This document shows positions 25,601 through 49,658 of a DNA stretch of 58,101 nt, in pieces; the stretch's first letter is position 1, and each line of letters begins with the position of its first letter. A program made the translations under genes and the position numbers. The notes beneath the pieces are model-generated. The model was not told the origin of the DNA. It saw only the letters and a program-made list of their open reading frames with translations, and did no database searches. Source of the stretch: an uncultured Spirochaetales bacterium (GTDB lineage: Bacteria; Spirochaetota; Spirochaetia; Sphaerochaetales; Sphaerochaetaceae); the NCBI GenBank assembly GCA_949285145.1, contig CASDXQ010000010.1, forward strand, positions 1-58,101. The letters are read 5' to 3'.

Positions 25601-26545
25601 ATGAAAAAGAGGTCTTTGTTACCATCATTAATTTTTTTTTGGGGGGGGGTAATATTTCTTCTAGCCCTCCTGACTTCCTGTCCGGGAAGCTCTGATATTA
25701 AGATTCATACCGTGACGTTCGATCTTGGATATGATGGCGCGTCGCCACCTGAGAAGATCGAGATAGAAGATGGAGCCGTACTTCCGTCTGTCGAGGATCC
25801 AGTACGGTATGGCTATCAGTTCGATGACTGGTACACTGCGGATGGCATGCTGTATGACTTCAAGACACCGGTAACAGAGAGCTTCACGCTTACAGCACAC
25901 TGGATACAGAACAGCGGAGGCGGTGGTGGAGGCAGTTCAGCTCCTACTGAAGAAGATCTGACAGGGCAGTGGGCTTTTTATTATTTAGAGTCTTCCGATA
26001 ATTTTTACCTGATTGATATCCAGCATACTCTGCAAGGATACTGGATTGCTATGCATCGCGGAGGTGAAAATCCTGATAACGCTGCTTTAGCTGTTAAATC
26101 AGACCGTACAGAAATAGAAGGTGACTGGTTTGTTGTTTCGGGGGATGATACGCTTGATGAAATAAAATACAGATTCATGGACGGTGAACGGGACATTCTG
26201 GAAGCTATAGTAGTTTTTAGCGACGGAGATTCCTTGGATTTACAGTTGAAACGAATCACCAGTGACCAGGAAATTAAACTGCATATTGTTACATTCCAGC
26301 TCGATGATTCCATTTCACCAGATGATGGCTATGTTTTTTACGCTACAGATATACCTGAGGTCAGTTCTCCTCTATTAATCGCTGTAAAACATGGCGAGTC
26401 TCTCGGAGAGTACTTCCCAAATCTGAAACAGAATGGATCCGAGGTTAATGCGCAGTTTACCGTTGATGGCACTGAGTTCACGGAAGATACCACTGTAAAT
26501 GAAGATATCACAGTAACAGTAACCCCTCTATCCCCTCAGGAGTGA
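25601..26545 (+). CDS. Surface lipoprotein with Listeria-Bacteroides-type repeat; G9 tract in signal peptide
   Basis: 314 aa from ATG 25601, with AAAGGAG eleven bases upstream. The lipobox LLTSC lies near residue 27. Residues 35-100 form an InlB/Listeria-Bacteroides repeat (VTFDLGYDGASPPEKI, then YGYQFDDWYTADGMLYDF and FTLTAHW). A glycine linker (GGGGGGSS) and an unfamiliar domain follow. Nine T then nine G (25632-25649) encode FFWGGV inside the signal peptide, so a one-base slip would turn the protein off. The ORF ends at a TGA where the next ORF, in the -1 frame, encodes the repeat domain such proteins normally carry; the gene is probably split. Confidence 0.7.
   Translation: MKKRSLLPSLIFFWGGVIFLLALLTSCPGSSDIKIHTVTFDLGYDGASPPEKIEIEDGAVLPSVEDPVRYGYQFDDWYTADGMLYDFKTPVTESFTLTAHWIQNSGGGGGGSSAPTEEDLTGQWAFYYLESSDNFYLIDIQHTLQGYWIAMHRGGENPDNAALAVKSDRTEIEGDWFVVSGDDTLDEIKYRFMDGERDILEAIVVFSDGDSLDLQLKRITSDQEIKLHIVTFQLDDSISPDDGYVFYATDIPEVSSPLLIAVKHGESLGEYFPNLKQNGSEVNAQFTVDGTEFTEDTTVNEDITVTVTPLSPQE
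25632..25649 (+). repeat. T9G9 homopolymer pair, candidate phase-variation tract
   Basis: Nine T (25632-25640) followed directly by nine G (25641-25649), within the coding sequence of a lipoprotein signal peptide. The present length keeps the frame open through the lipobox. Confidence 0.8.
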
Positions 26546-47267: not shown

Positions 47268-47613
47268 CTACTTCACCTCCGCTGTCCGCTTCCATGCTCA
47301 CGGCAATCCTGTTGGGAAGGCAGACAAGCATTTCAGGGTATTTGCTGATTGAACCTCTCATGCAGGTTTTGTTATCGCACGGGGATGAGAGTATCCTGAC
47401 CCTTCCGTCTTCAATCTGTATTGTCGTGATTCCTATTTCCCCCTCGGCCTTTATCGTCCTGTTTTCAGAGAGGGTGTAGCGGAAAATTCCCTCCGGTGTC
47501 TCAATCTGCACATAGGAAGCACCTGATGAAGAGAAAAGCAGCATTGAGACAGATGCTGCAAAGATGAATGCTATAAGAACTATGTCTGCAATCTTCAGGT
47601 GTTTTTCCTTCAT
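47251..47613 (-). CDS. NusG domain II-containing membrane-anchored protein
   Basis: 120 aa from ATG 47613. One N-terminal helix (IVLIAFIFAASVSMLLF) then a NusG-II-like beta domain with GIFRYTLSENRTI, IEDGRVRILSSPCDNKTCMR and ISKYPEMLVCLPNRIAV. The CDNKTC cysteines are conserved in this family. It regularly precedes Gx-type transporter genes, as here; function unproven. No good Shine-Dalgarno was seen before the ATG. Confidence 0.75.
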   Translation of the reverse strand: MKEKHLKIADIVLIAFIFAASVSMLLFSSSGASYVQIETPEGIFRYTLSENRTIKAEGEIGITTIQIEDGRVRILSSPCDNKTCMRGSISKYPEMLVCLPNRIAVSMEADSGGEVDAAAF

Positions 47614-47662: not shown

Positions 47663-47691
47663 TTGACAATACTTCCGGGGGGGGGTACTTT
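47663..47691 (+). promoter_or_regulatory. Promoter with G9 spacer tract (candidate phase-variable switch)
   Basis: A consensus -35 TTGACA (47663-47668) and -10 TACTTT (47686-47691) are separated by exactly 17 bp, of which nine (47677-47685) are G. A gain or loss of one G would move the spacing to 18 or 16. Poly-G promoter spacers of this kind control tpr genes in Treponema pallidum. Confidence 0.75.
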
Positions 47692-47723
47692 TGAGTTAAA
47701 GGTGAAAAAAAGAGGGGATTGTT

Positions 47724-49658
47724 GTGAGAAAAGCATTAACAATCTTGTTTGCAGTATTATTGGCATGCACATTTGTTTCCTGCAGCAGTGGTAATCCAGA
47801 ACCGCCGGCTGATAACAGAACACAGCTTGAAAGAGCAGATGAGGCGATATCTTCAGTTTCCCATGTTTTCAACGGAGTCGCTGCTGAGATAGATGATAAA
47901 GGCAATGATGTATATAAAATTGAGAATCCTGTTCAGATAAACGGCATGACAGTCAACGGTGGTACAAAAACTGTTTCAGAAGACGGATTCAACACTTCTG
48001 TTGAGATTGAGATTTCATATGAGGAAAACGGTCAGAATGTCAGCATTAAGAGCAGTGAGACTACGGATATATCAGTAACAGTAGACGGAAGTGATGCTGA
48101 TGTGTCGCTTGAGGAAACAAACAACATGCTTGCAAAAGCAAAGCAAATTCCAGCTTCTGTCTTTACAGAGACAGCAGGAGAAAATGGTACTGTTGTATAT
48201 ACATATGAAGCGATTTCTTCAGAACTGGCTGTTAAGAGGATACTAGCAGATGAAAATACAAATACGAATGAGATAAAGAAGGTCGTAATTACTTTTACAT
48301 ATGAAAGCAATAAAGCATCTTATGAATATGCTGTCACTTACAGTAGCGGAGATGCTGAGTGTATTGTAAAAAAGAATTTTTCAAAAGAAGTTGTAATAAT
48401 GTATGATTCGACCAGAGTTGAAATTTCATCTGATCTCAGGAATGAATTCACACTTTCTAATTTACAGACTACAGAGGACATTGAAAGCGGTAAAATATAT
48501 GATGGAATAGAACTCACAATGTGGTCAATGTGGAACGCTGAGGAATCCCAGGCCCAGATCATCCAGAAAGCTGCAGCTGCATTCAAGGAAAAGAAAGGTG
48601 CAGTCATCAACATCAAATTCTGCGGACGCGATATAGCAACAACTATAAATACAGCTCTTCAGAATGGCGAGCATATTGACATCTTCGAAGAAAACTACAC
48701 AAAAATCGGTCAGCAGTATGCCGCATATTGCTATGATATGAGCGCAATGGCGGAAGCTTCCGGTTACTTCGGCAACAGTTATCCGCTCTTCAACAACATG
48801 ACAAAAGAATGGACAGGCGGCAAGCTTGTTTCAGTCGCAGAGCAGCCGAACATGGGCGGTATCTTCTACGACAAGGCAAAGTTTGAGAAAGCCGGCATCA
48901 CAGAGACTCCGACAACATGGACAGAATTCCTTGATGTATGTCAGAAGCTTGTTGACGCAGGCTGCCAGCCGCTCGCACTTGACGGAACATACGCAGACTT
49001 CAACTTCGGTTATCACCTTGATAGATACATCGGCGAGGCAAAGACAAGAGAGCTTTCCCTCAACGGCGGCTGGTCAAATGAGCCGGGTGTCATTGCTGCA
49101 GCTGAAGACATCATCGATTTAGTGAAGCTCGATTATCTTGCTGATGGTGCTCCGGATGAATATCCCACAAGTCAGAACAAGATCGGTTTTGAAAATGTTG
49201 CAATGATTGTATGTGCTGACTATGTAACTTCAGAAGTCAACAATAACACAGATGCCGGAATTGAATGGGGAGTGTTTAATTATCCGTCTGTTCCCGTGGA
49301 AGACGGCGGTAATGGTTCCAGAAATGTATATGCCGGAGCTAATTCTTTTGCCATAACTGCACAATGTGCGGCTCCCAAGGCTGCTTATGATTTTCTGATG
49401 ACACTTGTGACTGGTGATTTCGATCAGGAAAGAGCTGACCTCATTCCTCAGATTCCTGCAGATCCTTCCAATCAATGTACAGCTCTTGACGGTGCTGTTG
49501 ATACACTTATGGAGGCAGAAGAGGCTCTGTCGTGGACAATGGGCATCAATGCAAACAGTGACCTCAAAGCAGAGCTGAAAAATACAATAATTGAATTGTT
49601 CCGTGGAAATTTTAAAACCGGAGAGGAATTTGCAGCTGCTCTTGATGCGCTCTACTGA
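47724..49658 (+). CDS. Chimeric lipoprotein: unknown N-terminal domain and family-1 solute-binding domain
   Basis: 644 aa from GTG 47724 with GAGGGGA seven bases before. Lipobox TFVSCSSG near 20. Residues 25-255 form an unfamiliar beta-rich domain; from about 260 (GIELTMWSMWNAEESQAQII) to the end is an ABC sugar-type solute-binding protein (IFYDKAKFEKAGITETPTTW, then YDFLMTLVTGDFDQERADLI). Typical binding proteins are 400-450 aa, so the N-terminal part is an addition. No permease or ATPase is nearby. The N-terminal part is richer in A+T than the 48,500-49,120 stretch, suggesting mosaic origin. Expression is probably phase-variable. Confidence 0.75.
   Translation: MRKALTILFAVLLACTFVSCSSGNPEPPADNRTQLERADEAISSVSHVFNGVAAEIDDKGNDVYKIENPVQINGMTVNGGTKTVSEDGFNTSVEIEISYEENGQNVSIKSSETTDISVTVDGSDADVSLEETNNMLAKAKQIPASVFTETAGENGTVVYTYEAISSELAVKRILADENTNTNEIKKVVITFTYESNKASYEYAVTYSSGDAECIVKKNFSKEVVIMYDSTRVEISSDLRNEFTLSNLQTTEDIESGKIYDGIELTMWSMWNAEESQAQIIQKAAAAFKEKKGAVINIKFCGRDIATTINTALQNGEHIDIFEENYTKIGQQYAAYCYDMSAMAEASGYFGNSYPLFNNMTKEWTGGKLVSVAEQPNMGGIFYDKAKFEKAGITETPTTWTEFLDVCQKLVDAGCQPLALDGTYADFNFGYHLDRYIGEAKTRELSLNGGWSNEPGVIAAAEDIIDLVKLDYLADGAPDEYPTSQNKIGFENVAMIVCADYVTSEVNNNTDAGIEWGVFNYPSVPVEDGGNGSRNVYAGANSFAITAQCAAPKAAYDFLMTLVTGDFDQERADLIPQIPADPSNQCTALDGAVDTLMEAEEALSWTMGINANSDLKAELKNTIIELFRGNFKTGEEFAAALDALY

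Follow-up and report, generated by a model that had tools for sequence, protein, structure and literature searches.

A poly-G tract in the spacer of a spirochaetal lipoprotein promoter: a probable spacing-dependent phase-variation switch

Does a run of nine G between the −35 and −10 hexamers of a lipoprotein promoter, found in an uncultured gut spirochaete, act as a switch whose length sets expression of the gene, or is it a fixed or incidental property of that promoter? The window, by which we mean the whole stretch of 58,101 nucleotides that was analysed, is contig C10 of a 61-contig assembly, and the genome-wide statistics given here come from pattern searches.

The promoter, its gene and the same site in sister species

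The locus comprises the following features, with the basis of each in brackets.

47663–47668, + strand: −35 hexamer TTGACA (sequence; same in sister species G012)
47677–47685, + strand: G9 tract, the 3' half of the 17-bp spacer, abutting the −10 (sequence, shuffles, family class)
47686–47691, + strand: −10 hexamer TACTTT (sequence)
47712–47717, + strand: Shine-Dalgarno (SD)-like GAGGGG (sequence)
47724–49658, + strand: lipoprotein gene, 644 aa, GTG start (ORF, profile search)
47724–47783, + strand: lipoprotein signal peptide, lipobox FVSC, Cys20 (kept in G012; homology ends just after)
47784–48482, + strand: N-terminal domain, aa 21 to ~253 (sequence comparison)
48483–49655, + strand: fused solute-binding-protein (SBP) domain, aa 254–644, ~390 aa, sugar-type (profile match, homology)
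47789–~49673, + strand: cassette, the gene body non-homologous to that of G012 (comparison with G012 and G001)

A preliminary description of the window had read here a TTGACA-17-TACTTT promoter with nine of its spacer bases being G, and this is exact to the base at 47663–47691. The −35 is perfect, TACTTT shares its first two bases and its last with TATAAT, and the 17-bp spacer (47669–47685) consists of ATACTTCC followed by GGGGGGGGG, its last nine bases all G, which places a homopolymer of at least 8 bases between a recognisable −35 and −10, the arrangement of the porA/TP0126 type. The lipoprotein gene begins 32 bp beyond the promoter, and given a transcription start ~7 nt 3' of the −10 the 5' UTR would be ~25 nt long. 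A pattern search found this TTGACA-N17-TACTTT to be the sole copy in the 2.06-Mb genome. In the window itself TTGACA-N17-TANNNT alone is not significant (1 seen against 0.40 expected) and G9 was seen twice where shuffles predict 0.11; it is thus the promoter match and the G9 combined that give significance, the 17-bp promoter pattern alone being insufficient. Tracts of at least eight G are rare in this genome (7 in 2.06 Mb), and five of the seven fall at lipoprotein genes, in the promoter, the leader or the signal-peptide region.

The gene was rightly called a chimeric solute-binding lipoprotein. Residues ~254–644 match SBP_bac_8/SBP_bac_1 (Pfam, E 1e-17), with PF13416 and PF01547 scoring 65.2 and 60.4 bits against cut-offs of 27 and 26 over aa 276–581. 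In G012 a stand-alone SBP of 427 aa, whose gene has membrane-protein genes next downstream, shares 81% identity with this domain. The window's own genome has a stand-alone copy too, apparently in two pieces, one at an end of contig C49 and the other at an end of C4. The domain is fused to the N-terminus of another kind of protein: aa 1–249 resemble, at 34–37% identity, the N-termini of separate 650–680-aa lipoproteins in G001, G012 and G005, and the N-terminal domain of the 644-aa lipoprotein gave no Pfam match. Homologues of this domain at three loci (L325, L326 and L327) are without poly-G and have instead a poly-A8-9 tract that abuts TAGCCT in the likely promoter.

At the same site in G012 the flanks are ~95% identical and the promoter, G9 and signal peptide are likewise conserved, but the body behind them belongs to an unrelated 867-aa lipoprotein. 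Promoter and signal peptide thus form a constant module, behind which the body is exchanged. In G001 the promoter and the whole gene are absent, with 47 bp in their place between flanks that are 90–92% identical. G012 is the sole close relative with this promoter, and its tract is also G9, in a comparison that rests on one assembly per species. Similar promoter and signal-peptide modules with differing bodies occur within single genomes of a sister genus, g31. Four contig ends of G001 (L135, L137, L139 and L140) have in common an identical repeat of ~77 bp, which ends ~4 bp short of a G9, and the sequences downstream of it at two of these ends correspond to G012 promoters with poly-G; the repeat is perhaps a mobile element inserting beside poly-G, and it had no match in the viral contigs searched.

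Poly-G-spacer promoters as a class

The pattern TTGACA-N6-12-G8+-TANNNT occurs at ~220 sites in 41 of 139 genomes of the family, a hand sum from a per-genome table in which the counts are partly non-independent, some g31 sites being recent paralogues; the reversed pattern occurs at 0, so the architecture in the window is not due to chance. The sites are concentrated in two genera, the organism's own (g1) and g31, and under this strict pattern single genomes reach a maximum of 7 in g1 and 12 in g31. With TTGAC-N-G7+-N-TANNNT, ten g1 genomes yield 26 sites against 0 for the reversed form. When the tracts of at least eight G in ten g1 genomes were gathered regardless of promoters (n = 127, with few left unfetched), 26 were found to abut a −10 (class I) and 11 to abut a −35 (class II), the others lying in or opposite ORFs or being unassigned. 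Class II promoters have a TANNNT −10 at 15–17 bp, as in TTGACGGGGGGGGTAAATACTCTACTCT, and number ~18 in the family versus 2 in the control. Since the tract may stand at the −10 end or at the −35 end, the feature common to these promoters is only its place inside the spacer. Right after the tract the g1 consensus is TA(G/C)(C/T)(C/T)T, and in g31 an ACC is conserved before it. A C-tract version of the same architecture is found at 2 sites in the family against ~220 for G, and this near absence indicates that the identity of the base matters somehow beyond spacing.

The genes behind these promoters are mostly lipoprotein genes. Of 75 sites of classes I and II taken together, 67 are followed by a lipoprotein gene, compared with 44 lipoproteins among 407 background ORFs that have no such tract and were drawn from the same loci rather than from whole genomes (Fisher p ~1e-42); a lipoprotein signal peptide comes next in 36/39 cases in g31, 21/25 of g1 class I and 10/11 of g1 class II. 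The start codon usually lies 20–40 bp 3' of the −10, after a good SD. The bodies vary: of ten that were scanned, most had no Pfam match, and the others carry Big_3, GLUG or Listeria-Bacteroides repeats. These lipoproteins may be exposed at the surface. Because nearly all such promoters precede variable, surface-type lipoprotein genes, slips in the tract probably turn expression of the genes on and off in a random manner.

Homopolymers also occur in other positions of lipoprotein genes. Another lipoprotein gene in the window, ORF 25601–26545 (+), which has a List_Bact_rpt domain, carries T9 then G9 at 25632–25649 (context MKKRSLLPSLIFFWGGVIFLLALLTSC) among its signal-peptide codons, where translational phase variation is likely and would make this a second switch in the window. 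An orthologous lipoprotein in three species has G8 in all three, in the codons just past the lipobox Cys (L057, positions 402–409, on contig C47 of the window's own genome; L138; L160), a likely frameshift-type switch. On contig C1 of the window's own genome (L047; 16005–16038, − strand), TTGACAATAC-T9-G9-TATCTT stands upstream of a 264-aa lipoprotein, and its spacer of 22 bp, with two adjacent homopolymers, is predicted to be OFF. In other lineages, poly-G-spacer promoters numbering at least two on one or two contigs were seen, among the matches listed, in L175 and L206 (Alphaproteobacteria Emb289P3bin18), L203 (Lentisphaerae) and L271 (Streptobacillus notomytis), which suggests that the architecture arose several times; the hits of the underlying scan are a mixture of chance and real ones and serve here as leads.

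Tract length, spacing and competing explanations

Tract lengths run from 8 to 13, with a mode of 9 in both g1 and g31. Within single g31 genomes, paralogous promoters differ by one G between identical flanks: G10/G9 in G062 (contigs C6/C48; 56 bp upstream and 118 bp downstream), G8/G9 in G060 (C68/C90; 45 and 92 bp), G10/G9 in G063 (C27/C13; 75 and 42 bp) and G9/G10 in G067 (C1/C10; 28 and 100 bp), with a one-base assembly error possible in single cases. Judged by these pairs the tract changes faster than its surroundings, and no other indirect evidence for slippage is as strong.

Whether such changes would matter depends on the spacing that the organism's promoters prefer. Ordinary g1 promoters, defined by TTGACA, TANNNT and GGAGG without poly-G, have a 17-bp spacer in 18 of 47 cases and an 18-bp spacer in 16 (together 34/47), which places the optimum of the genus near 17. 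An estimate by way of TTGACA-N-TATAAT was dropped, with too few sites and a count near the control. The poly-G promoters of g1 are distributed differently, 12/26 having 16 bp and 3/26, the window copy included, 17–18 bp; in g31 the mode is 19 bp (24/41), a distance that a 17-bp rule would rate as weak and longer than an ON state leads one to expect, so that most copies there may be OFF or the optimum may be a different one for poly-G DNA. When T9+G9 variants are included, the tracts give spacers of 15–22 bp. From the g1 optimum of 17–18 bp the window copy (G9, 17 bp) is predicted to be ON and many others to be weak or OFF. This accords with the earlier proposal that nine G give the optimal 17-bp spacing and hence the ON state, and also with its expectation that a slip to G8 weakens the promoter; its expectation for G10 probably does not hold, since 18 bp is about as common as 17 and a G10 promoter should therefore stay ON, clear weakening being predicted only for G8 or for at least G11.

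We envision a scenario in which the spacer of a sigma-70-type promoter gains or loses Gs through slippage during replication, and in which the changed number of Gs would alter the distance between −35 and −10 and, through it, transcription of the lipoprotein gene, with G9 and G10 ON and G8 and at least G11 weaker. The locus would be one of a repertoire of lipoprotein genes with similar promoters and signal peptides and different bodies, the body at this site having been exchanged between species. That the G9 tract is a slippage-prone spacer-length switch, giving phase variation of the porA/TP0126 type, is in our judgment highly probable; slippage as the cause, the effect on transcription and reversible switching in the population are what we infer from sequence comparison. 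The proposal of a phase-variable lipoprotein promoter is thus strongly supported comparatively, by the class, its link to lipoproteins, the length differences and the 17–18-bp optimum, but would change in its choice of the tpr genes as analogue and in the weakening expected at G10. A wider hypothesis, to which we give an even chance, is a whole-genome system of phase and antigenic variation in gut spirochaetes, in which a many-copy module switches independently from site to site and the bodies are recombined. The module would consist of TTGACA, a poly-G spacer, TANNNT, an SD and a lipoprotein signal peptide, with interchangeable bodies behind.

Other explanations of the tract have to be set against these data. 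If poly-G were a fixed promoter element (a regulator site, stiff or A-like DNA, or a sigma contact) whose length is no switch, the strand bias, with G and not C on the non-template strand at ~220 sites against 2, would be accounted for, as would the ACC conserved before the tract in g31 and a modal length of 9 that g1 and g31 share despite their different total spacings (16 and 19). However, the tract sits at either spacer end depending on the gene, its length ranges from 8 to 13 and differs between promoters with otherwise identical flanks, and with the T9+G9 variants it produces spacers anywhere from 15 to 22, all of which makes a fixed element unlikely. If the promoter were strong and constitutive and tolerated the G run, with switching rare or without effect, this would agree with the presence of G9 both in the window assembly and in G012 and with the optimal spacing; yet runs of at least eight G are rare in this genome and clustered at the 5' ends of lipoprotein genes, and without selection it is difficult to account for the link with lipoproteins across the family, so we regard constitutive expression as quite improbable.

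We attach very little credence to the view that the tract is an artefact introduced when the genome was sequenced or assembled, or that it represents a poly-C in the N-terminal extension of a minus-strand NusG_II ORF. Homopolymers in metagenome-assembled genomes (MAGs) can be off by one base, but the same G9 promoter stands in the independent assembly of G012 (CASFTW010000020), and MAGs from different studies show the pattern as well. A 190-aa minus-strand ORF does cross the tract; the Pfam NusG_II match, however, lies inside the short form that starts at 47613, and G001 retains the NusG_II gene without the tract, and on these grounds a minus-strand coding role for the poly-C was rejected. The reading that we favor remains a spacer-length switch.

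Relation to known poly-G switches

Among spirochaetes, poly-G promoter switching is known from the agent of syphilis, a bacterium in which genetic work is difficult. Its occurrence as a system of many genes in uncultured spirochaetes of the gut would indicate that it is not just a pathogen's device, and would offer many natural replicates of tract length, spacing and placement for testing spacing rules. It would also serve as a warning that lipoprotein expression in these organisms is unreadable from a consensus genome. A poly-G lipoprotein repertoire was not described in the literature searched, which covered phase variation or lipoproteins in Sphaerochaeta and Sphaerochaetaceae and phase variation in MAGs.

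The preliminary description had taken the tpr genes of Treponema pallidum as its analogue. Poly-G tracts do lie upstream of tprE/G/J and tprL (7–11 Gs in tprL) and their length alters expression (PMC7864442), and what they share with our locus is a spirochaete host and poly-G ahead of genes for surface-type proteins. In the tpr type, however, the tract overlaps the −10 or lies beside the transcription start; that of tprL covers part of the −10 and leaves the −35/−10 spacing unaltered (PMC7864442), whereas the tract described here is inside the spacer, and the tpr genes are thus the wrong model. The geometry is that of T. pallidum TP0126, an OmpW homologue with poly-G between −35 and −10 and an optimum at a distance of 17 (PMC7864442), and of porA of Neisseria meningitidis, in which poly-G occupies the −10/−35 spacer and, as PMC7864442 describes, shortening of the 17-bp spacing abolishes activity. 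TP0126, like our locus, belongs to a spirochaete, but it is a single gene for an outer-membrane barrel in a pathogen, whereas the genes here encode lipoproteins of uncultured gut spirochaetes, with promoters that number from several up to a dozen in a genome, the tract at either end of the spacer and, at this site, a body exchanged between species. The porA gene encodes a porin in a proteobacterium, at a single locus and with no shared promoter and signal-peptide module of the kind described here. The class of mechanism would therefore be one already known from porA and TP0126, and what is unusual in these spirochaetes is its scale.
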